Assembly: GCA_029939995.1 (NCBI GenBank)
Contig: JAOZRW010000003.1
Location: 1-50,662, forward strand
Length of the DNA stretch: 50,662 bases
Origin: Acidimicrobiia bacterium
Lineage (GTDB): Bacteria > Actinomycetota > Acidimicrobiia > Spongiisociales > UBA5794
Reading direction: 5' to 3'
Part shown: positions 10,823-30,595 of the stretch, one piece after another
Numbering within the stretch: position 1 is the first letter of the stretch
Layout of the letters: each line of letters begins with the position of its first letter
Notes under the pieces: model-generated
What the model saw: the letters and a program-made list of their open reading frames with translations, nothing else
What the model was told of the DNA's origin: nothing
The model's database searches: none
Program-made: the position numbers and the translations under genes

Positions 10823-11380
10823 ATGGGAAGACGGATCCTGTTCATCGGGCCCCCCGGGGTCGGGAAGGGCACTCAGGCGAAGCGACTGGTCGACGCGCTC
10901 GGCATCCCTCACGTCGCGAGCGGCGACATGCTGCGGGAAGCCGTGGCGAACGACACGGAACTCGGGAGAGAGGCCCGTCGGTACATGGAAGCGGGCGAAC
11001 TCGTTCCGGACAAGCTCGTGATCTCGATGATCGAGTCGCGACTCCGGGAACAGGACGCTTACTGCGGCTACGTCCTCGACGGTTTCCCGCGCAACGTCCG
11101 CCAGGCCGAAGCGCTCACCAAGACGCTCGGCGACGAGGCGATCGAAGTCGTCCTCGTGCTGGATGTTGACGAAGAGGAGATCGTCGAACGCCTTCTGAAA
11201 CGCGCTGCGATCGAGGGCCGGTCCGACGACGACGAACCCACGATCCGCCACCGGCTCGAGGTCTTCCGCACGGAGACCGAGCCCCTGATCGGCTACTACG
11301 CCGACAGGGTCCAGCGAGTCGACGGCGTCGGCACGATCGACCAGGTGTTCTGCCGCGTCGTCAGCGGGATGATCTGCTGA
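10823..11380 (+). CDS. adk: Adenylate kinase (short-LID form)
   Basis: FIGPPGVGKGTQAKRL; DGFPRNVRQAEAL. Confidence 0.95.
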   Translation: MGRRILFIGPPGVGKGTQAKRLVDALGIPHVASGDMLREAVANDTELGREARRYMEAGELVPDKLVISMIESRLREQDAYCGYVLDGFPRNVRQAEALTKTLGDEAIEVVLVLDVDEEEIVERLLKRAAIEGRSDDDEPTIRHRLEVFRTETEPLIGYYADRVQRVDGVGTIDQVFCRVVSGMIC

Positions 11381-12156
11381 TGGCCGGAGCAGGCGTCATC
11401 ACCAGGAAGAAGCCGGAAGACTTCGAGAAGATGGTGATCGCCGGACAGTGCGTCGCCGCCATGCATCAAGCGGTCCGGGACGCGGCTGCTCCGGGTGTCA
11501 CCACGCTCGAACTCGACGCGGTCGCGGCCGAGGTGGTTCGTGAGCGAGGGTGCAGGCCGTCGTTCCTCGGCTACCACGGGTTCCCCGGCACGATCTGCGC
11601 CTCACCCAACTCGGCGATCGTGCACGGCATCCCGGGCGGCTACACGCTCCGCAACGGCGACATCATCTCGATCGACGCCGGAGCGATCTACGAAGGATGG
11701 CACGGGGACGCGGCGTTCACCATGGCGATCGGAGACATCCCCGACGACGTGCAGCGATTGCTCGACGTCACCGAAGAAGCGTTGTGGAACGGCTTGCGCC
11801 AGGCGCGGCACGGGAATCGACTGGGAGACATCGGGCACGCCATCGAAGCGACGGCCGAGCCCGACGGGTTCGGTGTCGTGCGCGAGTACATCGGGCACGG
11901 GATCGGGCGACAGATGCACGAAGCGCCGAACGTCCCGAACTACGGGACGCCGGGGAAGGGGCTCAAGCTCAAGACCGGTATGGCGATCGCGATCGAACCG
12001 ATGTTCAACATGGGAACGGCCGAGACGGTGGCCCTCGAAGACGGATGGACGGTCGTCACCGCAGACGGCTCTCTCTCCGCTCACTTCGAGCACACGGTGC
12101 TGCTGACCGAGGAAGGGCCGCTCGTATCGACGCTCCCGGAGCCGCTTCTGCTCTGA
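11380..12156 (+). CDS. map: Methionine aminopeptidase type I
   Basis: GYHGFPGTICASPNSAIVHGIPG; GHGIGRQMHEAPNVPNYG; MAIAIEPMF. Confidence 0.95.
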   Translation: MAGAGVITRKKPEDFEKMVIAGQCVAAMHQAVRDAAAPGVTTLELDAVAAEVVRERGCRPSFLGYHGFPGTICASPNSAIVHGIPGGYTLRNGDIISIDAGAIYEGWHGDAAFTMAIGDIPDDVQRLLDVTEEALWNGLRQARHGNRLGDIGHAIEATAEPDGFGVVREYIGHGIGRQMHEAPNVPNYGTPGKGLKLKTGMAIAIEPMFNMGTAETVALEDGWTVVTADGSLSAHFEHTVLLTEEGPLVSTLPEPLLL

Positions 12157-12282
12157 GCCCCACACCGGAGCGTTCTTCCCTTGTCGCGTCCCCATGTTCG
12201 GCGTATGTTCGCGAAGAAGCGATAAGGATCCGGCCGATCAGGCCGATAGAGAGATACGGTTGCGAACCGTTGACAAGGAGCG

Positions 12283-12852
12283 ATGATGAAGTTGAAGACA
12301 CTGGTGATGCTCTTCGCCGTGCTCGCTTTGATGGCTTCCGCGTGCGGCGCGGCGGCGGACAAGATCTCTGAGAAGGCCGTCGAGAGCGCGGCCGAGAAAG
12401 CCATCGAGGAAGCATCCGGAGGCCAGGCCAACGTCGATATCTCCGGATCGGAGGACGCTCCGACCATCAAGGTCGAAACGGAAGAGGGGTCTGTGGCGTT
12501 CGGGGCCGGTGTCGACATGCCGGAGGAGATCACGATCCCGGTGCCCGACGGAGGGACCGTCCAGTCGGCGATGAGCTTCGACGACGGGTCGGCGCAAGCA
12601 TCCGTCGCATACGACCGGGATCGCTACGACGAACTGGTCTCGTTCTACGAGGACTGGGTGGCCGGCAACGGCGGCGATTCTTGGCAGAAGCAGACGCAAT
12701 CGATGGAGACCGGCGACGACACGATCCGGCAGACCTACTGGTTCGACGACGAGTCCGGCGCCGCGATCGGTGTGATGGACTGCGCCGCGTTCGGATCGGC
12801 CGGCGATGGTCTCGATGCCGCCTGTGTGTCGATCAGCCAGGGTGGTGCGTGA
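12283..12852 (+). CDS. Putative lipoprotein of unknown function (tandem paralogue 1)
   Basis: Signal peptide and lipobox LMASAC; similar to the following ORF. Confidence 0.8.
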   Translation: MMKLKTLVMLFAVLALMASACGAAADKISEKAVESAAEKAIEEASGGQANVDISGSEDAPTIKVETEEGSVAFGAGVDMPEEITIPVPDGGTVQSAMSFDDGSAQASVAYDRDRYDELVSFYEDWVAGNGGDSWQKQTQSMETGDDTIRQTYWFDDESGAAIGVMDCAAFGSAGDGLDAACVSISQGGA

Positions 12853-12904
12853 GCCGGGAAGGGTAATCTGGCCGTTCGTGGAGTCCTCAACATGGAGTGT
12901 GACG

Positions 12905-13465
12905 ATGAGTAGAACAATGAAGACGATGGTGGCTTTGCTCGCGGTACTCGCCCTCGTGGCGTCCGCGTGCGGTGCGGCGGCCGACAAGATCTCGGAAGAG
13001 GCCGCTCAGAAGGCCGCCGAGAAGCTGATCGAAGCGAGCTCGGATGGTGACGTCAGCGTCGATATCTCCGGTGATGGAGACGACGCGACGGTGAAGGTGG
13101 AAACCGAGGACGGGTCGATGTCATTCGGGGCCGGATCGGAGATGCCGGAGGGTCTCGAGATTCCCGTGCCGGACGGCGGGGTCGTGCAGACTTCGTTCTC
13201 GGGTAGCGACGGCATCATGGTGTCGATCGTCTACGACGGGGATCGCTACGAGGAGATCGTCGCTTTCTACGATGACTGGACGGCAGGCTCCGGCGACGAC
13301 TGGCAGAAACAGACGCTGGACATGAGCAGCGACGGGGAGACGTACCGCAACACGGTGTGGGTGGTCGACGGCAGCGACGACGTCATCAACGTCGGGGACT
13401 GCACTGCCGTGGGCTCGGATGACATGGAGCCGAACTCCGTCTGCCTGACCGTGGGCCAGGGCTGA
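12905..13465 (+). CDS. Putative lipoprotein of unknown function (tandem paralogue 2)
   Basis: Lipobox LVASAC; shares ACGAAADKISE, VDISG, VKVETE.GS..FGAG, IPVPDGG and DDWQKQT blocks with the preceding ORF. Confidence 0.8.
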   Translation: MSRTMKTMVALLAVLALVASACGAAADKISEEAAQKAAEKLIEASSDGDVSVDISGDGDDATVKVETEDGSMSFGAGSEMPEGLEIPVPDGGVVQTSFSGSDGIMVSIVYDGDRYEEIVAFYDDWTAGSGDDWQKQTLDMSSDGETYRNTVWVVDGSDDVINVGDCTAVGSDDMEPNSVCLTVGQG

Positions 13466-13510
13466 CCCCGAGTTCTCCGACGCCCGGCGAACCACGGGCG
13501 GCAAGACCCT

Positions 13511-13547
13511 ATACGCACCTGCGAGCCCAGGGCTCGCAGGTGCGTAT
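13511..13547. terminator. Perfect 18-bp inverted repeat, probable bidirectional terminator between convergent genes
   Basis: atacgcacctgcgagccc-a-gggctcgcaggtgcgtat; lies between the lipoprotein (+) and pucR-like (-) 3' ends. Confidence 0.75.
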
Positions 13548-15109
13548 CACGTGGGGGCGTGCATCTCGCCGATGAGGAGGGCGACCTGGAGTTCGAGGCG
13601 GCGTGTGGCGTCGGTTGAGAACGGGCCGACCAGGCGCTCGAGCTGGGTCGCACGATTGCGGATGGTGTTGTAGTGGTAGTGCTGGATCCGGGCGGTTTCG
13701 GCCACGTTCAGGTTGGTCTCGAGGAGAACCTCGAGCGTCCGGCGCAGCTCCGCCCGGTCTCCCGACGGTTCGTACAGCTCTCCGAGTGCCTCGCGAGCGA
13801 ACGTCTGGAGGACACCGGCGTCGACTTCGGAGAGCAGCCGGAAGACGCCGAGATCCGTGAACCGCGTGACTCCTCCCGGTCCCCTCACGACGTTCGCGAC
13901 CCTGGTCGCCGTACGGGCCTGCTCCCACCCCTTCCAGAGGCCCGACGAGTCGTCGACCTCTGCCGAGATCCCCACGGACCAGGTTCGCCGCACGAGGCGG
14001 GCCATCGCCTCATCGGCGGCCTCGACCGCGGTCGTCTCCGGGTCGCCGGCGGCGGAGCCGCCGCTGCCGACGATCGCCACGACCTCGCCGTTGACGATCG
14101 CATGCGGGGCGTGCAGCCCCCTGGCCTTCAGCGACCATCCGAGTGCATCTCTCGCTCGCTCGAGGTAGGGGGTGGCGTCGAGCGTGACGGGTTTCAGGTT
14201 CACCACGACGGACGGATACGAGATGTTCCAATCGAGCGCCTGGCAGCGTCGCCTCACGTCCCGGTCGTCGAGCCGGCTCTCGAGGAGTTGCTCGAGGAAC
14301 TCGGCTCGAAACTGTCGATCCACCGACGCGACGGCGATCTCGCGAGACGCGGCGAGCGCCATGATCTGTGCGCTCGTCGGGACGAGACCGGGGAAGAAGC
14401 TCGCGATCGGTCCCTGCTTCGGGAACACGTAGAGATGGCCGACGTAGGTTGATCCGAAGACGATCGGCGCCGCAGCCGCTCCTTCGAAACGGCGCCCGGC
14501 GGGTGGATTCCCGATCTCGTCGAGGACGCCGTCGTTGCTCGCGTGGTGGGCCAGTACGTCGTTGCCCGGTCCCAGAACCACCACCTCGCACCCCGTGAGA
14601 TCGGCGAGCCGCGCCGCGACCTCGACCGGTCCGCCGCCCGCCAGCGCAACTCTCATGAGCTCCTGCTCTCGGTCGCTCTTTCGGTGAAGGCCGCCGAGCA
14701 GCAACGAGCCTCTGGCCCGGTACACGTCTGCGATGAGGTCGTCGAACGAGACGGCGGCGGGAAGCGACAGGATGGGGAGCCCCCGGCGGCGGGCAGCGTC
14801 CAAGGCGTCGGCGCCTATCTCGTTGATGTAGGGGCCGAGCTTGACCCCGAAGCCCGCGAGGTCGAGATCGGCCAACTCCTCGATGAGCGCGGCCAGGTCG
14901 CGATTCCCGGCGGCGAGCGAGTAGCCCACGGTGATCAGCAGCTCGCGGCTCTTGACCCACGGTGTGATGCTCGGATTCTCCATGATGTTGACCGACGAGA
15001 CGATGCCGTCGAGACCGGATGCGCCGGCCAGGACCTCCGTTCCCTGGAAGCCGGGGGTCGCCAACACGTCCCGGAGGGTGAGCTGCTCGCCGCGGTAGGA
15101 ACTTGCCAT
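13547..15109 (-). CDS. PucR-family transcriptional regulator
   Basis: N-terminal [55 protein letters not shown]-terminal helix-turn-helix [36 protein letters not shown]. Confidence 0.88.
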
Positions 15110-15173
15110 TGAATCACCGATCGTCATGGCAACTGATGCTAGTGCTATCGGGGTGCGGTTCCCGTACTCTGAT

Positions 15174-15186
15174 ACCGAAGTTCGGT
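15174..15186. promoter_or_regulatory. Candidate operator palindrome in the divergent pucR-like / amidohydrolase intergenic region
   Basis: accgaa-g-ttcggt, perfect 6-bp arms, upstream of the aggagg RBS. Confidence 0.35.
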
Positions 15187-15209
15187 CTGTCGCTACAGGA
15201 GGCGAATTC

Positions 15210-16307
15210 ATGCCTGTTGAGGTACGCAAGGTTGTGCTCGAGAGCGTCAGTGACGCATCCGGATTGGCCGCACTGATCGACGAAGGGGCGTTCGAGGCCG
15301 ACGGCGTTGTCGCCGTCGTCGGCAAGACCGAGGGAAACGGCGGGGTCAACGACTTCACCAGGATCCTCGCCGACCAGGCGTTCCGGAAGGTGCTCATGGA
15401 GAAGGGCACCCGGCCCCAGGACGAGGTCGATGCCATCCCCATGGTGTGGTCCGGCGGAACGGACGGCATCCTCTGTCCGCACGCCACCATCTTCGCCAAC
15501 GTCGAGGGTGACGGTGAGGCATCCGACGAGCCCCGTCTCGCCGTCGGGTACGCGATGAGCGACGTCATCCTCCCCGAGGACATCGGCCGTCCCGCCATGG
15601 TCGCCAAGGTCGCCGAAGGTGTTCACCGCGCGATGCGCGCCGCAGGCATCGAAGACCCCGCGGACGTTCACTACGTTCAGACGAAGACGCCGCTGCTCGT
15701 CATGGACACCATCAACGACGCGAAGTCCCGGGGGCACACCGTGTACACCGAGGATCCGCTCGAGTCGATGAACGTGTCGAACGGGACGTCGGGTCTCGGC
15801 ATCGCCGTCGCCCTCGGTGAGATCGAGATGCCGACCGCCGAGCAGATCGGACACGATCTCAGCCTCTACTCGTCCGTCGCCTCCTGCTCGTCCGGTGTCG
15901 AACTGGACCGGGCACAGACGGTCGTCGTCGGAAACGTTCGCGGAGCCGGCGGCCGCTACCGGATCGGACACGACGTGATGAACGACGCTCTCGACGTCGA
16001 AGGCGTGTACCGGGCGATCCGCTCGGCCGGTCTCGACCTGCCCGAGTGCGCCCGCGCCGACGATCTCAACGGCAAGCTCGTCAACGTCTTCGTCAAGTGC
16101 GAAGCGGATCCGACGTCGCGCCTGCGCGGTCGGAGGCAGGTGGCGTTGGACGACTCCGACGTCCACCACCATCGTCACATCAAAGCCGCCGTCGGCGGCG
16201 TCGTGGCCTGCGCCATCAACGATCCCGCAGCGTTCGTCTCCGTCGCTGCGATCCATCAGGGCCCGTCCGGTGGCGGTCCCGTCGCCGCGATCGTGGATCT
16301 CGGCTGA
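15210..16307 (+). CDS. Ring-opening amidohydrolase (barbiturase / cyanuric acid hydrolase family)
   Basis: 365 aa; three-repeat family motifs [75 protein letters not shown] aggagg. Confidence 0.9.
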
Positions 16308-16312
16308 GAGGC

Positions 16313-17188
16313 ATGACCGCACGAGCGGTTGCAACTCGTCCCGCGCCGGCACCCGTCCGGGTGCCGGCGGTGGCGAGTACCGCCATCGAGGACATTCTGA
16401 GAGGGACACCTCTCCCGGCGACCGTGCTGGGAACATCCAGTCACGCCGCCTGGCTCCTCGCCGGTGATCGCGTCGTCGTCGTCACGACGCGTGACGCAAC
16501 CCGCCTCCCGAACGGCGTCGAGATCGCCGAAGCGGGAGGATCCCGTCCGTTCGACCCGATCCGGCACGGCTCGCATGCGGTCATCGGAAGCGATCGAATC
16601 CGGATCGGAGACCTCGAGATCGACGTCGCCCGATGGTGGGATCCCCGACCGGTCCTCGCCCCGGTGGCGCGCGAAGTTGCGCGTGCCGCACTCCGGGGGC
16701 TGCCGTCGACGGTGAACGGGGTCGATCACTGCGTGATCGGGCACGCACTGGCGACCCGATCGCCGATCGGACTCATCGAAGCCGTCGGGCGACTCCTCGG
16801 CAGAGGACCGGGGCTGACGCCCGAGGCCGACGACTACGTCGCAGGAGCGCTCGCAGCGACACGCATCGTCGGAGAGGCGATGGATCGTCGCGAATCGATC
16901 GAGATGCTCGACGCGGCCGCTCCCACCATCCGCAGCGTCGCCGACGATCGGACCACGACGTTCTCCGCCGCTCTCGTCGGCCATGCCGTACGCGGACAGG
17001 TCGCCGCGCCCGCCTCCGCACTGCTCCGGGCCATCGCCGGCCGGGGGGACGTCGCGACCGCTCACCGCAAGGTGCTGGAGATCGGCCACACCTCCGGGCC
17101 CGCACTCGCCGCCGGGATGGTGCTCGGCACCCGTTCACTCATCGAGGAAGTCGTTTCAACGGAGGTACTACATGATCTCGCGAGTTGA
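16313..17188 (+). CDS. DUF2877 protein (YlbF/AllH-like)
   Basis: GRGPGLTPEADDYVAGALAAT and GHTSGPALAAGMVLG motifs; precedes FdrA. Confidence 0.8.
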   Translation: MTARAVATRPAPAPVRVPAVASTAIEDILRGTPLPATVLGTSSHAAWLLAGDRVVVVTTRDATRLPNGVEIAEAGGSRPFDPIRHGSHAVIGSDRIRIGDLEIDVARWWDPRPVLAPVAREVARAALRGLPSTVNGVDHCVIGHALATRSPIGLIEAVGRLLGRGPGLTPEADDYVAGALAATRIVGEAMDRRESIEMLDAAAPTIRSVADDRTTTFSAALVGHAVRGQVAAPASALLRAIAGRGDVATAHRKVLEIGHTSGPALAAGMVLGTRSLIEEVVSTEVLHDLAS

Positions 17189-18602
17189 GGTCCATCGAGG
17201 CCGCTACCACGATTCGGTCCGGTTGATGCAGGCGAGCAAGGCGCTCCAGGAGGTGCCGGGAGTCACCGACGCGCTCGTCGCGATGGCAACCGAACTGAAC
17301 CTGAGCCTCCTCGCCGACATGGAATTCGACATGGATGAGGTCGCCGGCATCGGCCCCAACGATCTCCTCCTCGCCATCCGGGCAGAGACGGAAGAGGCCA
17401 TCGAGGCGGCTCACCGGGCGCTCGACGAGGCGCTCACTCCGAAGGTCGTGCCCAGCGGCGGCCTCGACGGTCCCGACCCGAAGACGATCGGAACCGCGGC
17501 CCGGCTCAACGGAGCCAACGTAGCGCTGCTGTCGGTCCCCGGCGAGCATGCGTTCGTCGAGGCGATGGAGGCGCTCCAGGACGGCCTCCACGTCATGATC
17601 TTCAGCGACAACGTCCCGATCGAACAGGAGATCACCCTCAAGGAGTACGGCGTGTCGCGCGACCTGCTCGTCATGGGGCCCGACTGCGGAACGACGATCG
17701 TCAACGGCCTCGGCCTCGGATTCGCCAACGCCGTGCAACCGGGACCGGTGAGCATGGTCGGTGCATCCGGGACGGGGATCCAGGAGATGTGCGCCCTCCT
17801 CGACGACGCCGGCGTCGGCGTGAAGCACGCCCTCGGAACCGGGAGCCACGACCTGTCGGAGGACGTCGGCGCCTCCTCGACGTTGCAGGCGCTCGAAGCC
17901 CTCGACGCCGACCCCGAAACCGAACTGATCGTCGTCATCTCGAAGCCGCCGGCGGCGGCGGTCGCAGACAAGGTCCGGCGCGTCGCCTCAGAATGCGCCA
18001 CCCCGGTCGTGATCACCTTCATGGGGGAGACCACGCTCGAAGAGGGCGCCGGTGAGGTGCTCGACGCGCTCGGCAAGCCGCGACCCGACTACGGGTCCTG
18101 GGAAGCGCCGGAGCGAGAGCACCGGCCCGGATCGGTGCGCGGGCTCTTCTCGGGCGGGACGCTCCGCTCGGAGGCGCGGCACGTAGCCATGCCCTACCTC
18201 GGCCCCATCGGAACCAGGGAAGAGGACGAGGGGCACACCTTCATCGACTACGGCGACGACGAGTACACGCAGGGCCGGGCCCACCCGATGATCGACCAGA
18301 CGGTGCGGGTCGAGCGGCTGGCCGCGACCGCCCACGATGAGACCGTGGGCGTGGTGCTGATGGACGTCGTCCTCGGATACGGATCCAACGCGAACCCGGC
18401 GGCGGAACTCGCCCCGATCGTGCGCAGGGTCGTCGACTCCGGCGTGGCCGTCGTCGTGTCGCTGTGCGGCACCAGGGGCGATCCTCAGGGACGCGACGCG
18501 CAGGCGACGGCGCTCAACGAAGCGGGAGCGTCGGTGTACCTGTCCAACGCTGCGGCGGCACGCGAAGCGGTGCGTCTGGCGACCACAAGGAGCTCATCAT
18601 GA
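17172..18602 (+). CDS. FdrA family protein (AllF-like, acyl-CoA synthetase fold)
   Basis: YHDSVRLMQASKALQEVPGVTDALVAMATELN; GPDCGTTIVNGLGLGFAN; GTGSHDLSEDVG. Confidence 0.88.
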   Translation: MISRVEVHRGRYHDSVRLMQASKALQEVPGVTDALVAMATELNLSLLADMEFDMDEVAGIGPNDLLLAIRAETEEAIEAAHRALDEALTPKVVPSGGLDGPDPKTIGTAARLNGANVALLSVPGEHAFVEAMEALQDGLHVMIFSDNVPIEQEITLKEYGVSRDLLVMGPDCGTTIVNGLGLGFANAVQPGPVSMVGASGTGIQEMCALLDDAGVGVKHALGTGSHDLSEDVGASSTLQALEALDADPETELIVVISKPPAAAVADKVRRVASECATPVVITFMGETTLEEGAGEVLDALGKPRPDYGSWEAPEREHRPGSVRGLFSGGTLRSEARHVAMPYLGPIGTREEDEGHTFIDYGDDEYTQGRAHPMIDQTVRVERLAATAHDETVGVVLMDVVLGYGSNANPAAELAPIVRRVVDSGVAVVVSLCGTRGDPQGRDAQATALNEAGASVYLSNAAAAREAVRLATTRSSS

Positions 18603-20005
18603 GTGATCTCAGCCAATTCCTCGACAACGAGCCCGTCGTCGCGACGGCGGGGACCGACATGCTGGCCGTCTCCATCGAACAGCAGGGCTCGACCGTGTCG
18701 CGAGCCGACTGGCGCCCGCCTGCCGCCGGGACGGAGGACGCCCTCAACGTTCTCTTCTCCGATGACCGGATGCGGGACGCGAACGAGGTCGCCGTCGGCC
18801 GCATGCTCGCCGTGCGCCCGCACCTGGCGGACGTCAAGGTCGCCCGCGACGTGATCACGGGCATGACGGACCGCACCTTCCTCCACGCCGGACCGCCGCT
18901 CGAATGGGACCGGGCCAGCGGGCCGATGAAGGGAGCGATCATCGGGGCCATGCTCTACGAGGGCCTCGCCGACGATCCCGACGACGCGGCCGCCCGGGCC
19001 GCCCGGGGGGAGATCGAACTCTCACCGTGCCACCATCACGACGCCGTCGGCCCGATGGCCGGTGTGACGTCTCCGTCGATGCCCGTGGCCGTCGTCGAAG
19101 ACGCCGCCGGGGACGGCGTGTCGTACTCGACCCTCAACGAGGGCCTCGGAAAGGTCCTCCGGTACGGCGCATTCGCCCCCGAGGTGATCGACCGCCTCCG
19201 ATGGATGGACGCCGTTCTCGGGCCCGTGCTCAAGGCCGTGCTCGCGAGCACGGGACCGATCGACCTTCAGTCGCTCATCGCCCAGGCCCTGCAGATGGGC
19301 GACGACGGCCACAACCGGAACCGTGCCGTGACGTCGCTGTTCCTCCGCGAGATCGCGGGGGCGCTCATCGACGGAGCCGACGCATCGGTCGAGAACCGCC
19401 GGGCCGTGTTCGACTTCATCAACGGCAACGACCACTTCATGCTCAACCTGGTCATGGCCGCAGGCAAGCTCGGATCGATGGCGGCCTCGGGCGTTCCGTC
19501 CTCGAGCCTGGTCACCGTGATGGCCCGGAACGGCACCGACTTCGGGGTCCGGCTGTCGGGGACCGGAGACCGCTGGTTCATCGCACCGGCCCCACCCGTC
19601 GACGGCCTCTACCTCGGTTCGTTCACCGAAGAGGACGCCAGCCCGGACATCGGCGACTCGACGATCACCGAGACCGTCGGGCTCGGCGGATTCGCCATGG
19701 GGGCCGCCCCCGCCATCGTCGGATTCGTGGGAGGCACCGCAGCCGGCGCCGTGCGCCGCACCCTGGCGATGTACGAGATCACGATGACCGAGCACCCGAT
19801 GTACCAGGTGCCGATGCTCGAGTTCCGCGGCACACCGGTCGGGATCGACGCAAGCCGCATCGTGAGAACCGGCGTGCTGCCGCAGATCAACACCGGGGTT
19901 GCGGGCAAAGTCCCGGGCACCGGCATGGTCGGTGCGGGACTCGTCGAAGCCCCGATGGAGTGCTTCACCCAGGGGATCACGGCGCTTGCGGAGGTGTCGC
20001 GATGA
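18599..20005 (+). CDS. DUF1116 protein (YlbE/AllG-like)
   Basis: Overlaps fdrA by ATGA; MKGAIIGAMLYEGLA, CHHHDAVGPMAGVTSPSMPV, NGNDHFMLNLVMAAGK, VMARNGTDFGVRLSG. Confidence 0.85.
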   Translation: MSDLSQFLDNEPVVATAGTDMLAVSIEQQGSTVSRADWRPPAAGTEDALNVLFSDDRMRDANEVAVGRMLAVRPHLADVKVARDVITGMTDRTFLHAGPPLEWDRASGPMKGAIIGAMLYEGLADDPDDAAARAARGEIELSPCHHHDAVGPMAGVTSPSMPVAVVEDAAGDGVSYSTLNEGLGKVLRYGAFAPEVIDRLRWMDAVLGPVLKAVLASTGPIDLQSLIAQALQMGDDGHNRNRAVTSLFLREIAGALIDGADASVENRRAVFDFINGNDHFMLNLVMAAGKLGSMAASGVPSSSLVTVMARNGTDFGVRLSGTGDRWFIAPAPPVDGLYLGSFTEEDASPDIGDSTITETVGLGGFAMGAAPAIVGFVGGTAAGAVRRTLAMYEITMTEHPMYQVPMLEFRGTPVGIDASRIVRTGVLPQINTGVAGKVPGTGMVGAGLVEAPMECFTQGITALAEVSR

Positions 20006-20092
20006 TCGGTCGAACCGACATCGGGCGCACCGCCGGGGGGCCTTCCAGAGTTTGTAGGATGCACGGTCCGGGGGCGACGATGGAGGGTGATC

Positions 20093-20977
20093 ATGGTCAT
20101 CGCTAACGAGTTCGACTACCGACGTCCGGACACCCTGGGGGAGGCCATCCAGATCCTCTCCGAGGCGTCCGGTTCGGTCCGGATCCTGGCAGGCGGCACC
20201 GACGTCGTCGCGTGGCTCCGCGACGACGTGATCGCTCCCGATCTGGTCGTCGACATCAAGGACGTTCCCGGTCTCCACGATCTCACGTTCGAGGACGGGA
20301 CCCTCCACATCGGATCCCTCGTCACGTTCACGGAACTGATCGAGTCGGACGTGATCGCGGAACACGCCCCGCTTCTCGCCGAGATGGCGGGGACGGTCGC
20401 GTCCCCCGGGATCCGCAACCGGGCGACGATGGTCGGCAACATCTGCTCGGCCGTCCCGTCGTGCGACGCCGGACCGGTGCTCCTGGCGTACAACGCCACC
20501 GTGCACCTCGCCGGGCCGTCCGGTGAACGCACCGTCGAGATGAGCGACTGGTTCACCGGGCTGCGTCGGACCGCACGCACCGACGACGAGGTCGTCACCC
20601 ACCTGACGATCGACCCGGGCCGCCACGGCGGCGTCTACGTGAAGCTGATGCGGTACGCCGGCGAGGACCTCGCCCAGGCGTCCGTCGGCATCGTCGTCTC
20701 CGCAGACCACGACTACCGGATCGCGTTCGGTGCGGTCGCTCCGACGCCGATCCGGTCGAGCCGGATCGAGGAATTACTTCGCGGCAAGACGCTCGACGAA
20801 GCGCTGATCGGCGAAGCGGTCGCCATGGTGAGCGGAGAGATCAGCCCGATCACCGACATCCGGGCTTCAGCGGAGTATCGAACCCACATGACCGAGGTCA
20901 TGTTGAAACGGGGACTCGTGGCGGCGACGGAGCGACTCGAAGGAACCGGGCCGGCCTACGGCACCCGGCTTGTGTGA
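20093..20977 (+). CDS. FAD-binding subunit of a molybdopterin dehydrogenase (xanthine dehydrogenase family)
   Basis: FDYRRPDTLGEAIQIL, ILAGGTDVVAWLR, ASPGIRNRATMVGNICSAVPSCD. Confidence 0.9.
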   Translation: MVIANEFDYRRPDTLGEAIQILSEASGSVRILAGGTDVVAWLRDDVIAPDLVVDIKDVPGLHDLTFEDGTLHIGSLVTFTELIESDVIAEHAPLLAEMAGTVASPGIRNRATMVGNICSAVPSCDAGPVLLAYNATVHLAGPSGERTVEMSDWFTGLRRTARTDDEVVTHLTIDPGRHGGVYVKLMRYAGEDLAQASVGIVVSADHDYRIAFGAVAPTPIRSSRIEELLRGKTLDEALIGEAVAMVSGEISPITDIRASAEYRTHMTEVMLKRGLVAATERLEGTGPAYGTRLV

Positions 20978-20987
20978 GGGGACGGCA

Positions 20988-21449
20988 ATGGATTTGAAGA
21001 TCAAGATCAACGGCGAGGACTGGACGCTCGACGTCGCACCCGCCGACACGCTGCTCGACGTACTCAGGGAGCGCGTCGGCACCAAGAGCCCCAAGATCGG
21101 ATGCGAGCGGGGCGACTGCGGTTCGTGCACCGTCCTGATCGACGGCCGATCCGTCAGAAGCTGCCTCGTGCTCGCCGTCGAAGCCGACGGCCATGAGATC
21201 ACCACCGTCGAGGGGATCAGCTACGACGGGCTGAGCGCGCTCCAGACGCTCTTCCTCGAGAACAACTCGTTCCAGTGCGGATTCTGCACACCAGGGATCG
21301 TCCTATCCGCCACCGAGCTCCTCGAACAGAACCCGAACCCGACCCGACACGACGTTCAGGAAGCGCTCGCCGGCAACCTCTGCCGGTGCACGGGATACGA
21401 GCCGATCATCGATGCGGTTCTTGCCGCAGGAGACGGGGGATCCGAATGA
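20988..21449 (+). CDS. [2Fe-2S] subunit of a molybdopterin dehydrogenase (xanthine dehydrogenase family)
   Basis: GCERGDCGSCTVLIDGRSVRSCL and QCGFCTPGIVLSA..NLCRCTGYEPI cluster motifs. Confidence 0.95.
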   Translation: MDLKIKINGEDWTLDVAPADTLLDVLRERVGTKSPKIGCERGDCGSCTVLIDGRSVRSCLVLAVEADGHEITTVEGISYDGLSALQTLFLENNSFQCGFCTPGIVLSATELLEQNPNPTRHDVQEALAGNLCRCTGYEPIIDAVLAAGDGGSE

Positions 21450-23833
21450 CGCCGACGGACACGTTCCTCTTCGAAGCCGAATCCGGGAACAAGGATCTCG
21501 AGAGCGTCGGAACGCCGGCGGTCCGGATCGACGGACGGGACAAGATCAGCGGCGCCGCGCAGTTCGTCGACGACATCGACTTCGGCCCCGGTCTGCTCCA
21601 CGCCGCGGTCGTCGAGAGCCCCCACGCCTACGCCAGGATCGTCTCGATCGACACGTCGGAGGCCGAGAAGGCCGACGGCGTGGTGCGGGTCGCCACGGGC
21701 AAGGACTTCCCGTACAAGTTCGGGATGTACATGGAGGACCGATACATCTTCGCCCAGGACTACGTCCGGTTCGTCGGCGAGCAGGTCGCCGGTGTCGTCG
21801 CCCGCAGCCACCGCGAAGCGGTCCGGGCGGCCAAGCTGGTCAAGGTCGAGTACGAGGTGCTCACCCCGCTGCTCGACCCGAAGGCCGCCGTCGAAGACGG
21901 AGCCGAGCTGATCCACCCGGATCTCGACGAGTACACCCACGTCCCCTGGTTCTTCCCGAAGGCGAACACGAACATCGCCCACTGGAGGAAGATCCGCAAG
22001 GGCGACACGGAGAAGGCGTTCGCCGAAGCCGACTACGTCCTCGAGGACACCTACACCGTGCCGCGCTACGCCCACTGCGCCATCGAACCGCACGTCACCG
22101 TCAGCAAACTCGACTTCGCCGACCGCCTGACGGTCTGGACGGCGTCGCAGTCGCCGCATACGCAGCGGCACCTCTTCGCTGAGGCGCTCGCGCCGCTCGG
22201 GTTCACCCACAAGGACGTGCGCGTCATCACGCCGTACGTCGGCGGAGGGTTCGGCGGGAAGGCCGGCGTCTCCATGGAGATCATCGGTGCCGCCCTGGCG
22301 ACGCTCGTCAAGGGACGTCCGGTGAAGCTGCGATTCACCCGGGAGCAGGAGTTCTACAACACCTACCAGCGTCAGGGTGTCGTGGCCGAGCTCAAAGTCG
22401 GCGTCAAGTCCGACGGGGAGATCACCGCAGTCGAGCACAAGCTCTACTGGGACGCCGGCGCGTACGTCGAGTACGGGGCCAACGTCGTCAACGCCGCCGG
22501 CCTGTCGGCGACCGGGCCGTACCGCGTGCCCAACATCACCAACGACTCGCTGTGCATCTACACGAACCTGCCCCCGGGCGGGCCGTATCGCGGGTTCGGA
22601 TACTCCGAGTTCCACTTCGGCCTCGAGTCCCACATGGATCGCATCGCCGAAGCCATCGGCATGGATCCCGTCGAGTTCCGCCGCAAGAACGCCATCATCG
22701 AAGGCGACGAGCTGGCCTACGGCGCAGCGATGAACCCCTCCGGCATGCTCGAGGCGATCGACCGCACCGCCGCGGCCATCGACTGGGGTGTCGAAGAGGA
22801 GTCCGACAACCCCAACACCGTCATCGGTAAGGGCATCTCGCTGTTCTGGAAAGCGCCGGCGATGCCACCCAACTCGTCTTCCGCCTCGTTCCTGAAGTTC
22901 AACGAGGACGGCAGCATCAACATCACCGTGTCGGGGATGGAACTCGGGCAGGGCTACCTGACCGTCATGGCCCAGATCGCCGGTGAGGTCCTCTCGGTGC
23001 CCGTCGACAAGATCAGGGTCGAGACACCCGACACGGACCGCAACCCGTACGAGTGGCAGACGGTGGCGTCACACGTGACGTGGAGCTCCGGCCTCGCGGT
23101 GGAGAAGGCGGCGATCGAAGCGAGAGCCAAGATCTTCGACGTCATCCACCAGGTCTACGGCTACGAGGACGACTCGCTCTACCTCGAAGACGAGAAGGTG
23201 AAGTGCAAGACCGACCCGTCGTTCGCGAAGTCGCTCAGCGAGTTCGTCATCGACGGCATCCAGACCGAGGACGGCACGTGGCGCGGCGGACCGATCGTCG
23301 CGAGCGGGAAGTTCATGCCGGAGTTCACCAACGCCAACAGTGACCCGGAGACGGGACAGGGCGGACATCCGAACGTCCACTACACCGTGGGCGCAACGGG
23401 CGTGATCCTCGAGATCGACAAGGAGACCGGACGGATCTGGGTACGCAAGGCCGCGCTCGCCGTCGACGCCGGTCGAGCCATCAACCCCGACCTCGTGAAG
23501 GGGCAGATCACGGGAGGCCTGGTGCAGGGCCTCGCCACCGTGTTGTACGAAGACATGCGCTTCGACGACGACGGCAAGCTGCTGAACCCGAACTTCACCG
23601 ACTACAAGATCCCGACGGCGTTCGACATCCCCGACGAGATCATCCCGATCATCGTCGAGGTTCCCCAACCCGACGGCCCGTTCGGCGCCCGCGGCGTCGG
23701 GGAGCACACCATGATCGGCGCCGCACCGGTGATCGCCAACGCCGTCTACAACGCACTCGGGGTCCGCATCAAGTCGATGCCGATCACCCAGGAGAAGGTG
23801 GCGATGGCCATCCTCGAACAGTCCGGAAACTGA
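21446..23833 (+). CDS. Molybdopterin-binding large subunit of a xanthine dehydrogenase family hydroxylase
   Basis: GGGFGGK, PYRGFGYSE, GARGVGEHTM (putative catalytic Glu), DAGRAINPDLVKGQITGG. Confidence 0.93.
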   Translation: MTPTDTFLFEAESGNKDLESVGTPAVRIDGRDKISGAAQFVDDIDFGPGLLHAAVVESPHAYARIVSIDTSEAEKADGVVRVATGKDFPYKFGMYMEDRYIFAQDYVRFVGEQVAGVVARSHREAVRAAKLVKVEYEVLTPLLDPKAAVEDGAELIHPDLDEYTHVPWFFPKANTNIAHWRKIRKGDTEKAFAEADYVLEDTYTVPRYAHCAIEPHVTVSKLDFADRLTVWTASQSPHTQRHLFAEALAPLGFTHKDVRVITPYVGGGFGGKAGVSMEIIGAALATLVKGRPVKLRFTREQEFYNTYQRQGVVAELKVGVKSDGEITAVEHKLYWDAGAYVEYGANVVNAAGLSATGPYRVPNITNDSLCIYTNLPPGGPYRGFGYSEFHFGLESHMDRIAEAIGMDPVEFRRKNAIIEGDELAYGAAMNPSGMLEAIDRTAAAIDWGVEEESDNPNTVIGKGISLFWKAPAMPPNSSSASFLKFNEDGSINITVSGMELGQGYLTVMAQIAGEVLSVPVDKIRVETPDTDRNPYEWQTVASHVTWSSGLAVEKAAIEARAKIFDVIHQVYGYEDDSLYLEDEKVKCKTDPSFAKSLSEFVIDGIQTEDGTWRGGPIVASGKFMPEFTNANSDPETGQGGHPNVHYTVGATGVILEIDKETGRIWVRKAALAVDAGRAINPDLVKGQITGGLVQGLATVLYEDMRFDDDGKLLNPNFTDYKIPTAFDIPDEIIPIIVEVPQPDGPFGARGVGEHTMIGAAPVIANAVYNALGVRIKSMPITQEKVAMAILEQSGN

Positions 23834-23859
23834 AGCAACCCAGGAGGAGAGAAAAGCGA

Positions 23860-24627
23860 ATGTCCGTCGACCTAGAGAAAATCCTCAGGCCCGTCGATTC
23901 AGACATGGCGCCGTACGAGCCGAAGTACATGCTGCTCGCCAGCGGTGAGACGGCCGTCGTGCGTCCGGTGGATCGTGACGAGATCCCCGATCTCTTGAAG
24001 CACGTCGAACCGCTGATTCACGTCGAGCGCGACTTCTACGACGTCGTCGCCTCGCGTGTGTACGCAGAGCTGTTGTCCTATGCGAAGTACCGGTTCCAGG
24101 ACCAGTACGTCCTCGCGGTTCAGATCGACGGTGAGCTCGCAGCCATCGTCAACGGACGGCAGGTCAACCCGAAGCTCGGGCTGTCGTTGCACACCCTGGC
24201 GTTGCGCAGAGGCCTCCGTGTGGGAGCCCACGCTTTCGCTGCCAAGATGGAGTACCACTTCGACGCCCTCGGTCACGACGAGGTGCTCATCGTCGCCGAG
24301 TCGCCGATCGGGTTCCGTCGCTGGATGATCGAGTACAAGCTCGAGAAACGCTTCGACATCCCGCATGAGCTCGGTGGTGTCCCCTCGTGGGCCCTCACCC
24401 GCGAACTGTTCGACGCCGCTCGCTCGAGCCTCGTCGTCGGCCGTCGCCCCGTCCCGCCGGAGCTGCTCGACAAGGCCATGGAGAAGATCCTCCCGCCGTC
24501 GGATCCGCCGACGCCGGCTCTCGATCCGCTCTCGGCCACCCGTTCGAAGTACGATCCGACCGCAACGGCGCTCATGGTCGAACGGTGGGCGATGGAGCGG
24601 GCGGAGGAGGCGTCGAAGGATGCGTGA
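23860..24627 (+). CDS. Conserved hypothetical protein, possible GNAT-like fold
   Basis: Strong RBS (aggagga); LRRGLRVGAHAFAAKMEYHFDALGHDEVLIVAESPIGFRRW resembles a GNAT core; in the same gene string. Confidence 0.5.
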   Translation: MSVDLEKILRPVDSDMAPYEPKYMLLASGETAVVRPVDRDEIPDLLKHVEPLIHVERDFYDVVASRVYAELLSYAKYRFQDQYVLAVQIDGELAAIVNGRQVNPKLGLSLHTLALRRGLRVGAHAFAAKMEYHFDALGHDEVLIVAESPIGFRRWMIEYKLEKRFDIPHELGGVPSWALTRELFDAARSSLVVGRRPVPPELLDKAMEKILPPSDPPTPALDPLSATRSKYDPTATALMVERWAMERAEEASKDA

Positions 24628-25795
24628 CGTATACGTAGCCGGTATCGGCATCACGACGTTCACCCGTCTGGAGTTCGCCCTGTCCGAGATAGCGTCGTAC
24701 GCGTCCATGATGGCGCTCAAGGACGCCGGCGTCAGCGAAGTGGACGATGTCTACGTCGCGAACATGGGAGCCCCGAGGGTCAACCACCAGACGGCGCTCG
24801 CCAGCGCGGTCGTCGACAGTCTGAGCCTCACTCCCGCCGGCGCTGCGGCCATCGAGAACGGTCCGGCTTCCGGGGGATCCGCGATCAAAGCGGGATTCCA
24901 GGCGGTCGCGTCCGGCATGTCCGACGTGGTGCTGGTCGCCGGTGTCGAACGGATGCGCGAGGTCAACAACCTCGAAGCCACCGATTTCGTCGCGACGCTG
25001 ACGCATCCGATCGCCGAGTACATCTACGGTGTGACCCTCCCCGCCCACGCGGCGATGTTCACCCGTCTGTACATGGAGAAGTACGGCGTCACCGAACGCC
25101 ATCTCGCGATGGTCGGTGTCAAGAACCAGAACGCGGCCCTCAACAACGAGTGGGCGCACCTCCAGCAGGAGATCACGCTCGAAGGCATCCTGGATTCGCC
25201 GGAAGCGATGACGAACAACCCGTACGTCGCGGAACCGCTTCGGTTCTTCGACGCCTGCCCCGTCTCCGACGGCGGCGCGGCCGTCATCCTGGTATCCAAG
25301 GAGAAGGCGCTGGAGCTCGGAAGGCCGCTGATCCGGCTCTCGGGCATCGGCCAGGCCACGGACACGCACGCCGTACACGAGCGTGTGGAACCGACCGATC
25401 TGCTCGCCGTCCGTAAGGCGGCCGCCGATGCGTTCGAGATGGCGGGTCTGACGCCGGAAGACGTCGACGTCGCCGAACTCCACGACGCGTTCACGATCCT
25501 CGAGATCGCGGAGAGCGAAGAGGTCGGCTTCTTCCCCAAGGGGGAAGGGCATCTCGCCCTGGAGCGAGGCGAAACGGCGCTCGGTGGGAAGATCCCCATC
25601 AACGTCGGCGGCGGCCTGAAGGGTCGCGGCCATCCGGTCGGAGCGACCGGTGTCGCTCAGGCATGGGAGATCGTCACGCAACTGCGTGGAGACGGCGGCG
25701 CGCGACAGGTCGAAGACGCGAAGGTAGGATTCACCTGCAACTTCGGCGGCTTCGGCAACAACGTCGTGTGCCTCACGTTCGTGAGGGAGGGCTGA
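24620..25795 (+). CDS. Thiolase-like protein (SCP2-thiolase type) lacking the nucleophilic Cys
   Basis: MRDVYVAGIGITTF..; IENGPASGGSAI where thiolases have ..ACASGG..; HDAFTILEI, GGGLKGRGHPVGATG. Confidence 0.82.
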   Translation: MRDVYVAGIGITTFTRLEFALSEIASYASMMALKDAGVSEVDDVYVANMGAPRVNHQTALASAVVDSLSLTPAGAAAIENGPASGGSAIKAGFQAVASGMSDVVLVAGVERMREVNNLEATDFVATLTHPIAEYIYGVTLPAHAAMFTRLYMEKYGVTERHLAMVGVKNQNAALNNEWAHLQQEITLEGILDSPEAMTNNPYVAEPLRFFDACPVSDGGAAVILVSKEKALELGRPLIRLSGIGQATDTHAVHERVEPTDLLAVRKAAADAFEMAGLTPEDVDVAELHDAFTILEIAESEEVGFFPKGEGHLALERGETALGGKIPINVGGGLKGRGHPVGATGVAQAWEIVTQLRGDGGARQVEDAKVGFTCNFGGFGNNVVCLTFVREG

Positions 25796-26142
25796 TGAAT
25801 CGGGAGATCTACGCGTACAAGTGCAAGCGGTGTGGAACGATGCACTATCCGTTCCGCATGGTCTGCAAGGAGTGCAAGCAGAACGATTTCTTCGAATTCG
25901 ACACGGTGCCGCTCCCCAAGAACGGGAAGCTGTTGACCTACACCAAGGTCTACAACCTGCCGGCGCAGTACGAAGTCGCGACACTCGGACTCGGGATCGT
26001 CGAGTTGGAGAACGGGATGCGGATGCTGGGCCAGATCGAGATCGACAACCCCAAGATGGGCATGCCCGTCAAAGGCAACGTCGAGGTCGTTCGCCAGGAG
26101 GACTACGACGACTTCTACGGGATGGTGTTCAGAGACGCATGA
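25795..26142 (+). CDS. DUF35 / Zn-ribbon plus OB-fold protein, thiolase partner
   Basis: YKCKRCGTMHYPFRMVCKECKQ zinc ribbon followed by a short OB-like domain; ATG overlaps the thiolase stop. Confidence 0.82.
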   Translation: MNREIYAYKCKRCGTMHYPFRMVCKECKQNDFFEFDTVPLPKNGKLLTYTKVYNLPAQYEVATLGLGIVELENGMRMLGQIEIDNPKMGMPVKGNVEVVRQEDYDDFYGMVFRDA

Positions 26143-26305
26143 CGCGACAACGCCGTGCCGGAAGGCACCCAGCGACGGCTGAGCGGGGGAAGATGGCGAT
26201 GAGCCGCCTGTTCGCTCGGTCGTTGCCGGACGGCGATTGCACGAGTGTCCTGGCCGGGGAGCGGGCCCCCGGACGGACCTGGTCGACGAGCCCGATCGGA
26301 ATCAG

Positions 26306-26335
26306 AGAGAGCCACCCCGGAGCGGGTGGCTCTCT
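26306..26335 (+). terminator. 12-bp hairpin in the permease leader; terminator or attenuator candidate
   Basis: agagagccaccc-cggagc-gggtggctctct, 24 nt upstream of the permease ATG. Confidence 0.55.
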
Positions 26336-26359
26336 TCGTCTATGGGAGAGGGAACACGC

Positions 26360-27607
26360 ATGGAATTGAGCATGCAGAAAAAGACGGTGCTGGGATTGCA
26401 GCACGTCGTGGCGATGTTCGGGGCAACGGTCCTCGTTCCGCTGCTGACGGGGCTCGATCCGTCGGTGGCGTTGCTCGCGGCCGGTATCGGGACGTTGAGC
26501 TTCCACCTGATCACGAAACGGATGGTCCCGGTCTTCCTGGGGTCTTCGTTCGCGTTCATACCGGCGATCATCCTTGCCACCGAACGGGGCTACTCGTGGG
26601 CGGCGATCGGGTTCGGGATCATCATGGCCGGTGTGCTCTACGTGCTCATGGGCGGTCTGGTGGCGCTGATCGGCCACGAGAGGGTCACGAGGATCTTCCC
26701 GCCGATCGTGACCGGCCCGGTGATCATCGTGATCGGCATGACCCTTGCTCCCGTCGCTCTCAGCATGGCCGAGGGCGCCTGGTGGCTGGCCATCCTGACC
26801 CTGGCAACGGCCGTCGTGGCTGCGGTGTTCTTCAAGGGCTTGTTCAAGATGCTCCCGATCCTGACCGGGGCGATCGTCGGCTACATCTTCGGGGCGATCT
26901 TCTTCCCGGAATTCTCGTTCCAGCCGGTGCTCGACGCCGCGTGGATCGGCCTTCCCGACTTCACGTGGGGATGGCAGGACCCGAACTGGTCGGCCGTCTG
27001 GCTGATCGCTCCGATCGCGTTCGTCACGATGATCGAGCACGTCGGTGACATCGTCGCCAACGGCGGCGTCGTCGGGAAGAACTTCCTCGACGAGCCGGGC
27101 CTCAACCGGACGCTCATGGGTGACGGTATCGCGACGGCGATCGCCGGCCTCATCGGCGGTCCGCCGAACACGACGTACTCGGAGAACACCGGTGTGCTCG
27201 CGGTCACGAAGGTCTACGACCCGATGATCCTTCGCATCGGCGCCGGGTTCGCGATCTTCCTCGCCCTGATCCCGAAGTTGGCTGCGATCCTGCGCACCGT
27301 TCCGGTCCCCGTTCTCGGTGGGCTGTCGACGGTCCTGTTCGGCATGATCGCCGCCGTCGGCCTGCGGACACTCGTGACCGCTCAGGTCGACTTCAAGAAG
27401 AGCCGGAACATGATCGTGGTCGGCATGATCCTCGTATTCGGCCTCGGTGTCAGCGGACTCTCGAGTGCCCTGTCGATCGGCGACGTCGAGATCTCGGGCC
27501 TCGCGCTCGCGGCCGTCGTCGGTGTGGTTCTCAACCTGGTCCTCCCGGAGAAGGACGAGGACGACGAGGTCGCACTGCCGGCGAAGATCATCGCCGGAGG
27601 AGAGTGA
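26360..27607 (+). CDS. Uracil/xanthine permease (nucleobase:cation symporter-2 family)
   Basis: GLQHVVAMFGATVLVPLLTGLDPSVALLAAGIGTL; GDGIATAIAGLIGGPPNTTYSENTGVLAVTKVYD (UraA-type). Confidence 0.93.
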   Translation: MELSMQKKTVLGLQHVVAMFGATVLVPLLTGLDPSVALLAAGIGTLSFHLITKRMVPVFLGSSFAFIPAIILATERGYSWAAIGFGIIMAGVLYVLMGGLVALIGHERVTRIFPPIVTGPVIIVIGMTLAPVALSMAEGAWWLAILTLATAVVAAVFFKGLFKMLPILTGAIVGYIFGAIFFPEFSFQPVLDAAWIGLPDFTWGWQDPNWSAVWLIAPIAFVTMIEHVGDIVANGGVVGKNFLDEPGLNRTLMGDGIATAIAGLIGGPPNTTYSENTGVLAVTKVYDPMILRIGAGFAIFLALIPKLAAILRTVPVPVLGGLSTVLFGMIAAVGLRTLVTAQVDFKKSRNMIVVGMILVFGLGVSGLSSALSIGDVEISGLALAAVVGVVLNLVLPEKDEDDEVALPAKIIAGGE

Positions 27608-27636
27608 CGGTTCTCGACGGAATCGAATAGGAGATC

Positions 27637-27662
27637 GGGGGAGCCGGGTCGCCGGCTCCCCC
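27637..27662 (+). terminator. GC-rich hairpin after the permease
   Basis: gggggagccgg-gtcg-ccggctccccc; no strong U tract. Confidence 0.5.
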
Positions 27663-27882
27663 AACGCCTGTGTAGGACGGTGCGCCGGTGACAACTCCGG
27701 GGATCGACGTGGTGCGGGGCGGTACTCGGCAACGGCTCTCGAGCGGGTGATCGTTCGGTCTCGATCTCGGCGGCATCCGGGCGAGAATCGTCGCGGCCCT
27801 TCGCGGCGACCACCGCTTTCACTGTCTCGGACCGGGACGTCGACTACCCGGGCACGTGTCTCAAACCTCGTGGGAGGGACTG

Positions 27883-28332
27883 ATGAACGAAGACGATGCA
27901 CGCTTCCTCGCCCTGGCCATCGAGCAAGCCAAGATCGGCCGCTCCGAAGGGGGCATCCCGATCGGCGCGGTACTCGCCTCGGAAGGCAAGGTGCTCGGCG
28001 CCGGGCGCAACCGCCGGATCCAGCTCGGCTCGCCGATCCGTCACGGCGAGACGGATGCGCTCGAGGTCGCCGGCCGGCAGTCGGCGGCCGTGTACCGCAA
28101 GTCGACGATGTACACGACGCTGTCGCCGTGCGACATGTGCACGGGAGCCATCCTGCTGTACGGCATCCCGCGGGTCGTGATCGGCGAGAACCGCACGTTC
28201 ATGGGCGGCGAGGACTATCTCCGGAGCCGCGGCGTCGAGGTGATCGTCGCCGACGATCCCGAGTGCATCGCGATGATGGAGGATTTCATCGCGGAGAGCC
28301 CGGAGATGTGGAACGAGGACATCGGGGAGTAG
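27883..28332 (+). CDS. Cytosine deaminase, yeast FCY1-type (CDA superfamily)
   Basis: HGETDAL and SPCDMCTGAI zinc motifs; YTTLSPCDMCTGAILLYGIPRVVIGEN..F.GGEDYLRSRGVEV.V.DD.EC..MM.DFI.E.P..WNEDIGE closely parallels yeast cytosine deaminase as I recall it. Confidence 0.85.
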   Translation: MNEDDARFLALAIEQAKIGRSEGGIPIGAVLASEGKVLGAGRNRRIQLGSPIRHGETDALEVAGRQSAAVYRKSTMYTTLSPCDMCTGAILLYGIPRVVIGENRTFMGGEDYLRSRGVEVIVADDPECIAMMEDFIAESPEMWNEDIGE

Positions 28333-28365
28333 CGCCCCGATCGGACCACGCGGCGGAGCGGGTTG

Positions 28366-28423
28366 CCCCCCTGCGTCGTCGCTTCGCTCCTCCGCGTCCC
28401 CCCGTCCGGCGGCCGGGGGGACA
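28366..28423 (+). repeat. Dispersed GC-rich palindromic repeat, copy A
   Basis: ccccctgcgtcgtcgcttcgctcctccgcgtccccccg...cggggggac; similar to 40466-40521 (minus) and 40836-40897. Confidence 0.65.
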
Positions 28424-28514
28424 TGGAATATGGGGTGAGTCCCCGGCTCTCTTGTCCCCCCGTCTTGCAGCTTGGGGACATGGAGTGGGGGGGGGGCGTG
28501 GTTCATGGGCCGGG

Positions 28515-29339: not shown

Positions 29340-29464
29340 GGTGCGAACGGTACCTTCGGGGCGCCGGTTCCGTCGCTATCGTCGCACCGGACACGCGGGG
29401 AAGGACGGTGTCTGCAGCATCGGCGAACGGTGCCGACGGGAACGCCTACGGGAGGTCGGATCGA

Positions 29465-30244: not shown

Positions 30245-30257
30245 CCGTAAGGGCGAG

Positions 30258-30287
30258 TTGCCGTTACCCGGCGGGCGTCCCTACACT
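30258..30287 (+). promoter_or_regulatory. Candidate sigma70-type promoter for the rpmJ-rpsM-rpsK-rpsD-rpoA-rplQ operon
   Basis: ttgccg - 18 nt - tacact in the 230-nt leader upstream of rpmJ. Confidence 0.4.
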
Positions 30288-30474
30288 CCCGTCAGCGGCC
30301 CGGGAACGGGGCGCGTTTTCCCATGCAAAGACGTCGTTGATATCGACGGGTCCGGGCACCGCTCGGCCACCGTCGGTGTAGAGGTCACACTTCGCTGCGG
30401 ACACCTCCGTGCCCGCCTTGGTGACTCTCGGATGCGACGTCCGAAAGAATCGAACCGAGGCAGGATCACCACTG

Positions 30475-30588
30475 ATGAAAGTATCAGCATCCGCCAAGAA
30501 AATGTGCGATAAGTGTCGGATCATCCGACGTAAGGGTCGCGTCTGGGTGATCTGCGAGAACCCGCGACACAAGCAGCGTCAGGGGTAG
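30475..30588 (+). CDS. rpmJ: 50S ribosomal protein L36
   Basis: [37 protein letters not shown], read directly (below the ORF-track length cutoff). Confidence 0.95.
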
Positions 30589-30595
30589 CGCACAC

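Follow-up and report, generated by a model that had tools for sequence, protein, structure and literature searches.

A barbiturase-linked AllFGH carbamoyltransferase proposed to phosphorolyse ureidomalonate in an actinobacterial pyrimidine operon

The contig JAOZRW010000003.1 of an Acidimicrobiia bacterium (assembly GCA_029939995.1), analysed over positions 1 to 50,662 (referred to here as the window), contains three genes of the AllH, AllF and AllG families directly downstream of a ring-opening amidohydrolase gene. We propose, with a probability of about 0.83, that this trio encodes the three subunits of an AllFGH-family carbamoyltransferase, which would phosphorolyse ureidomalonate in an oxidative pyrimidine pathway encoded by one operon. 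The trio almost always travels with barbiturase, and the opened ring is thus probably split with phosphate, so that the energy would be kept as carbamoyl phosphate. The proposal gives a new substrate and a new pathway to a known kind of enzyme and is well supported by the genomic context.

A sequence-only reading of the window had described DUF2877, FdrA and DUF1116 genes that overlap head to tail after the amidohydrolase gene. The three open frames and their families were confirmed (Table 1). AllH and AllF overlap by 17 base pairs (bp), and AllF and AllG by 4 bp. The start of AllH lies 5 bp downstream of the barbiturase stop, and its ATG is preceded by GAGG. AllH and AllG pass their Pfam models (cut-offs 25 and 27 bits), the latter with 215 of the 215 model positions covered. 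AllF carries a Ligase_CoA domain (107.6 bits) and a CoA_binding domain. Its best match in the PDB is by far FdrA of E. coli; the alpha subunit of succinyl-coenzyme A (CoA) synthetase reaches at most 52 bits. In keeping with membership of the AllFGH family, the three genes adjoin in one operon, and this arrangement recurs in relatives. No solved relative of AllH was found in the PDB sequence search. Its AlphaFold model, with N-terminal strands and C-terminal helices (predicted local distance difference test score 92), likewise had no match among solved structures at E ≤ 0.001, and no active site can therefore be proposed from the AllH structure search.

The assignment of the upstream neighbour to the barbiturase family also held. 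The closest solved relative of its product is the barbiturase 5HWE with 522 bits, compared with 317 bits for the best cyanuric acid hydrolase. The catalytic Lys, Ser and Glu residues and the first Arg are kept. Arg188 of the Azorhizobium cyanuric acid hydrolase is replaced in barbiturases, and the barbiturase subgroup is said to carry Gln (PMC4051656). At this position, Asn is present in the window protein, in 113 of 113 barbiturase-type copies and, at variance with the published Gln, in 5HWE; the four cyanuric-acid-hydrolase-like copies have Arg. The window protein also passes the NCBIfam cyanuric acid hydrolase equivalog NF052395 (458 bits, cut-off 360). We reject the identity suggested by this pass on the best solved match and the Asn marker, in view of which we judge the equivalog to be too broad.

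The link between the trio and barbiturase extends well beyond the window. Among 41 relatives searched, AllG is present in 14 and an AtzD-family gene in 13, and all 13 AtzD-family carriers have AllG. The order of the genes for barbiturase, AllH, AllF, AllG, the three molybdenum hydroxylase (Mo-hydroxylase) subunits, a 255-amino-acid protein, a thiolase-like protein and an OB-fold protein is kept in the genomes G026, G038 and G040, in other families of the order. The recurrence of the trio order in related genomes indicates that it is neither a matter of chance nor an assembly artefact. G025 alone among the relatives has AllG but no barbiturase. Its AllG is divergent, and the genome also encodes an allantoinase that passes the cut-off (409 bits) as well as an AllD-like protein that does not. 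In an evenly drawn sample of 399 Actinomycetota genomes, AtzD-family genes were found in 26, AllG in 51 and both in 24. AllG is thus present in 24/26 genomes with an AtzD-family gene and in 27/373 of the others (Fisher test, p = 3e-22, a value that overstates the number of independent events because the genomes are related; the 11 families represented are the fairer figure). The two AtzD-family genomes devoid of AllG (G119 and G249) carry cyanuric-acid-hydrolase-like genes, as does G237, where AllG is of a low-scoring type and lies on a different contig. With these three set aside, AllG accompanies barbiturase proper in 23 of 23 genomes. All 19 pairs of AllG and AtzD-family genes located on the same contig are separated by 3.3 to 44 kb. 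When genomes were picked by barbiturase alone (best loci), 29 of 30 had AllG. In other actinomycete families (L157–L160, genes called by codon usage), there are complete clusters made up of a Mo-hydroxylase, AllG, AllF, AllH, carbamate kinase, a permease, sometimes cytosine deaminase, barbiturase and a PucR regulator.

Carbamate kinase adds a second line of evidence. Of the 63 loci that do not belong to the Acidimicrobiia cassettes, 48 have its gene on the same strand as barbiturase and immediately upstream of it. This position makes most sense if carbamoyl phosphate is formed from the product of ring opening. Together with the barbiturase co-occurrence, this linkage supports, at the level of gene content, the phosphorolysis of ureidomalonate that had been put forward from the sequence alone.

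In the proposed pathway, uptake and deamination of cytosine would deliver uracil, which the Mo-hydroxylase would oxidise to barbiturate. Barbiturase would then open the ring to give ureidomalonate. In the third chemical step, AllFGH would convert ureidomalonate (H2N-CO-NH-CO-CH2-COO-) and phosphate into malonamate and carbamoyl phosphate. Carbamate kinase would turn the latter into adenosine triphosphate (ATP), CO2 and NH3, and an amidase would release malonate from malonamate. Succinyl-CoA synthetase converts a thioester and phosphate into an acyl phosphate. Since AllF resembles the alpha subunit of that enzyme, AllFGH may by analogy convert an acylurea and phosphate into carbamoyl phosphate, with the carbamoyl as the acyl group and the amide as the leaving group. 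The pathway would share barbiturase, the intermediate ureidomalonate and, as we infer here, uracil oxidation with the oxidative pyrimidine pathway of Rhodococcus erythropolis (uracil dehydrogenase, barbiturase, ureidomalonase). It would differ in the last step, which is described as hydrolysis in R. erythropolis; the phosphorolysis proposed here would save one ATP equivalent as carbamoyl phosphate. Genes for a CN_hydrolase, amidase or asparaginase and for a family III CoA-transferase are located near the clusters of other actinomycetes and may encode the conversion of malonamate via malonate to malonyl-CoA.

Several points weigh against the proposal. The carbamate kinase of the window's genome, looked for at the suggestion of the sequence-only reading, was found on another contig (C197:373-1302, 372 bits) and is not linked to the cassette. 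The gene is also common in relatives that lack the trio, so its presence here permits the pathway and does not prove it; as nearly all relatives have a match, it was discarded as discriminating evidence. No malonamate amidase, a search target suggested by the same reading, was located in this genome. AllF stays under the cut-off of the NCBIfam FdrA subfamily NF004760 (404.9 versus 433 bits). Kinetics of AllFGH have been published for the E. coli enzyme alone and cover only the reverse, synthetic reaction of oxamate with carbamoyl phosphate, with a Michaelis constant for oxamate of 36.9 mM (PMC11326118). Finally, a hydrolytic ureidomalonase has been described in work on barbiturase (Soong 2001, as cited in PMC4051656), and another route for ureidomalonate therefore exists.

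This last point leads to an alternative in which a ureidomalonase encoded elsewhere hydrolyses ureidomalonate and the trio has some other task, with FdrA acting, for instance, as a malonyl-CoA or malonamyl-CoA ligase. The hydrolase reportedly forms urea and malonate. The CoA-ligase-like nature of AllF and the thiolase-like protein with its OB-fold partner further along the operon would fit such a role. The E. coli trio is, however, a carbamoyltransferase and not a CoA ligase. Furthermore, no urease match was found in the window's genome or in 12 of the 13 barbiturase-bearing relatives, so hydrolysis to urea would strand the nitrogen, barring some other use of urea. It would also leave the carbamate kinase adjoining barbiturase with no substrate from the pathway. 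We therefore regard this alternative as highly improbable.

The trio might also have the usual activity of an oxamate carbamoyltransferase, with allantoin-derived oxalurate as its substrate, and its location next to barbiturase might be incidental. Pfam names the AllG and AllH families oxamate carbamoyltransferase subunits, and in E. coli, the source of the characterised homologue, AllFGH is a carbamoyltransferase needed for the conversion of allantoin into oxamate (PMC11326118). The window trio has much in common with E. coli AllFGH (fdrA-ylbE-ylbF; EC 2.1.3.5): the three families, the adjoining genes, the universal residues and carbamate kinase as a partner. The context is nevertheless different, AllD and allantoin with oxalurate as substrate in E. 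coli and barbiturase and pyrimidines in the window. The gene order also differs, AllF-AllG-AllH in the former and AllH-AllF-AllG in the latter, and the window AllG has an N-terminal stretch not present in AllD-linked AllG. The sequence-only reading had left room for an allantoin/oxalurate pathway that the trio would serve instead. No such pathway was detected: the window's genome, which is 94% complete, gave no AllD match in a family search and no allantoinase over the cut-off (best 278 bits, cut-off 357.85). True AllD-linked trios do exist in Actinomycetota, and the one in the AllG tree joins E. coli AllG, apart from the barbiturase-linked copies. As the trio is, moreover, closely linked to barbiturase and found together with it in 11 families, a role in oxalurate breakdown is very unlikely.

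A third alternative retains the phosphorolysis and changes its substrate to a near analogue, either acetylurea, which is decarboxylated ureidomalonate, or the methyl analogue derived from thymine. This is chemically plausible, and the pyrimidine context is compatible with uracil and thymine alike. Other members of the family, however, act on carboxylate-bearing acylureas (oxalurate) or adjoin their producers (carboxybiuret near cyanuric acid hydrolase). There is accordingly only a very small chance that such an analogue, and not ureidomalonate, is the substrate.

The AllFGH family occurs in several further contexts. AllG sets found apart from barbiturase are associated with AllD (G369, G373), with hydantoinase A/B and a Mo-hydroxylase (G102, G199, G219), with an isochorismatase-like hydrolase (G108, G131, G359; the E. 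coli and Peptoclostridium plasmids L167 and L043) and with cyanuric acid hydrolase (L042, L145), and carbamate kinase often accompanies them. In the AllG tree, a branch with support 99/95 parts the barbiturase-linked copies from the eight others, including that of E. coli; the copy L040 of G025, on a branch 9.8 long, was left out of the interpretation. In all contexts including E. coli, 81 residues of AllG and 57 of AllF are identical. The catalytic core is thus probably common to all of them, which fits a single chemistry. A candidate specificity position is residue 313 of AllG, within the ARNGxxFG motif: barbiturase-linked copies have Thr here, AllD-linked ones Asn or Tyr and cyanuric-acid-hydrolase-linked ones Val. 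The skeleton -OOC-X-CO-NH-CO-NH2 is common to oxalurate, ureidomalonate and carboxybiuret. We consider it reasonably probable that AllFGH is a general acylurea-phosphorolysing module with at least three substrate classes, namely oxalurate for AllD-linked sets, ureidomalonate for barbiturase-linked and possibly hydantoinase A/B-linked sets, and carboxybiuret or biuret for cyanuric-acid-hydrolase-linked sets on conjugative plasmids. The upstream enzyme would deliver R-CO-NH-CO-NH2, and the trio with carbamate kinase would harvest one ATP.

Serratia (a KPC plasmid) and Aminobacter SR38 have conjugative plasmids on which the carbamate kinase gene occurs together with those for cyanuric acid hydrolase, FdrA and DUF1116 (L145, 8909-16550; L042, 10445-15538). 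The same two gene matches recur on plasmids of Citrobacter, Klebsiella and other enterobacteria. These cassettes (cyanuric acid hydrolase-NCS2-DUF2877-FdrA-DUF1116-arcC) share the ring-opener family, the trio and carbamate kinase with the barbiturase-linked clusters. They differ in that the ring opener has the Arg marker of cyanuric acid hydrolases and would form carboxybiuret, which is isosteric with ureidomalonate. The set may be a mobile cassette for the phosphorolysis of carboxybiuret or biuret. In genomes lacking barbiturase, AllG and AllF near the barbiturase-linked type adjoin hydantoinase A/B and a Mo-hydroxylase (L162, 9713-18999; L169; L170), where hydantoinase A/B is a possible ATP-dependent substitute for the ring opener. 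A set of isochorismatase-like hydrolase, FdrA, DUF1116 and carbamate kinase is present on E. coli IncF plasmids, in Peptoclostridium and in an actinomycete (L167, 5807-11365; L043, 5202-12363; L163); DUF2877 is annotated in L167 and L043.

A literature search that left most subscription journals outside, and by which priority is not established, returned no paper joining the trio to barbiturase and no genes assigned to ureidomalonate breakdown. The proposal would provide a specific gene assignment, in dozens of actinomycetes that include many cultured ones, for a pathway step to which genes had been lacking. If it is true, a nitrogen-salvage pathway becomes an energy-conserving one. The DUF1116 and DUF2877 families are named oxamate carbamoyltransferase wherever they are found, and these names probably mislabel many actinobacterial copies.

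Table 1. Features of the barbiturase–AllFGH operon and its divergent regulator (window positions)
Feature	Position	Strand	Matches and remarks
PucR-family regulator, divergent	13547..15127	-	PF07905 100.6 bits, HTH_30
Barbiturase (ring-opening amidohydrolase)	15210..16307 (frame open from 15126, likely start 15210)	+	PF09663 480 bits
AllH (DUF2877), proposed third carbamoyltransferase subunit	16313..17188	+	PF11392 76.7 bits
AllF (FdrA), succinyl-CoA-synthetase-like subunit	17172..18602	+	PF00549, PF02629; PDB 3DMY 232 bits
AllG (DUF1116)	18599..20005	+	PF06545 306.3 bits; PDB 3CLQ 375 bits
Mo-hydroxylase FAD subunit (candidate for oxidation of uracil to barbiturate)	20087..20977	+	PF00941, PF03450
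Mo-hydroxylase 2Fe-2S subunit	20988..21449	+	XdhC/PucE-like NCBIfam matches under cut-off
Mo-hydroxylase molybdopterin subunit	21446..23833	+	PF02738, PF20256, PF01315; PDB best 1RM6 346 bits
255-amino-acid protein without family	23860..24627	+	conserved in relatives
Thiolase-like protein; usual nucleophilic Cys missing	24620..25795	+	PF22691, PF00108
OB-fold (ChsH2_C/DUF35) partner of thiolase-like protein	25858..26142	+	PF01796 33.9 bits
NCS2 nucleobase permease, uracil permease closest	26342..27607	+	PF00860 302.8 bits
Yeast-type cytosine deaminase	27883..28332	+	PDB cytosine deaminase 160 bits

The operon spans positions 15210-28332, from barbiturase to the deaminase, with the PucR gene divergent (Table 1). 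The Mo-hydroxylase matches the xanthine dehydrogenase family and misses every NCBIfam equivalog cut-off. From the operon context its putative substrate is uracil; its genes are nominated as candidates for a uracil-oxidising molybdenum enzyme. The permease scores 343 bits against uracil permease and 222 against xanthine permease, reaching the equivalog cut-off of neither. In the PDB, tRNA adenosine deaminase and guanine deaminase follow cytosine deaminase as matches of the deaminase with 63 and 36 bits. By these similarities the operon is pyrimidine-oriented. The PucR-family regulator and the similarity of the Mo-hydroxylase to xanthine dehydrogenase had prompted a purine reading (guanine or xanthine), which we reject on the permease and deaminase scores.

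The genes for the 255-amino-acid, thiolase-like and OB-fold proteins are conserved only in cassettes of the Acidimicrobiia type. The 255-amino-acid protein has no match in Pfam or NCBIfam. The thiolase-like protein has an NGPASG motif in 15 of 15 copies, and together with its OB-fold partner it recalls the pairing of thiolase-fold aldolases with DUF35 proteins. The whole catabolic cassette is located within a ribosomal-protein superoperon between map and rpsM (window 11380-30973). Sister genomes have the same cassette borders, adk-map-PucR-barbiturase in L030 and permease, SNase and rpsM in L031. Positions 12283-13465 of the window hold two similar tandem genes for small lipoprotein-like products with no Pfam match, and related copies adjoin the permease end of the cassette in sister genomes.

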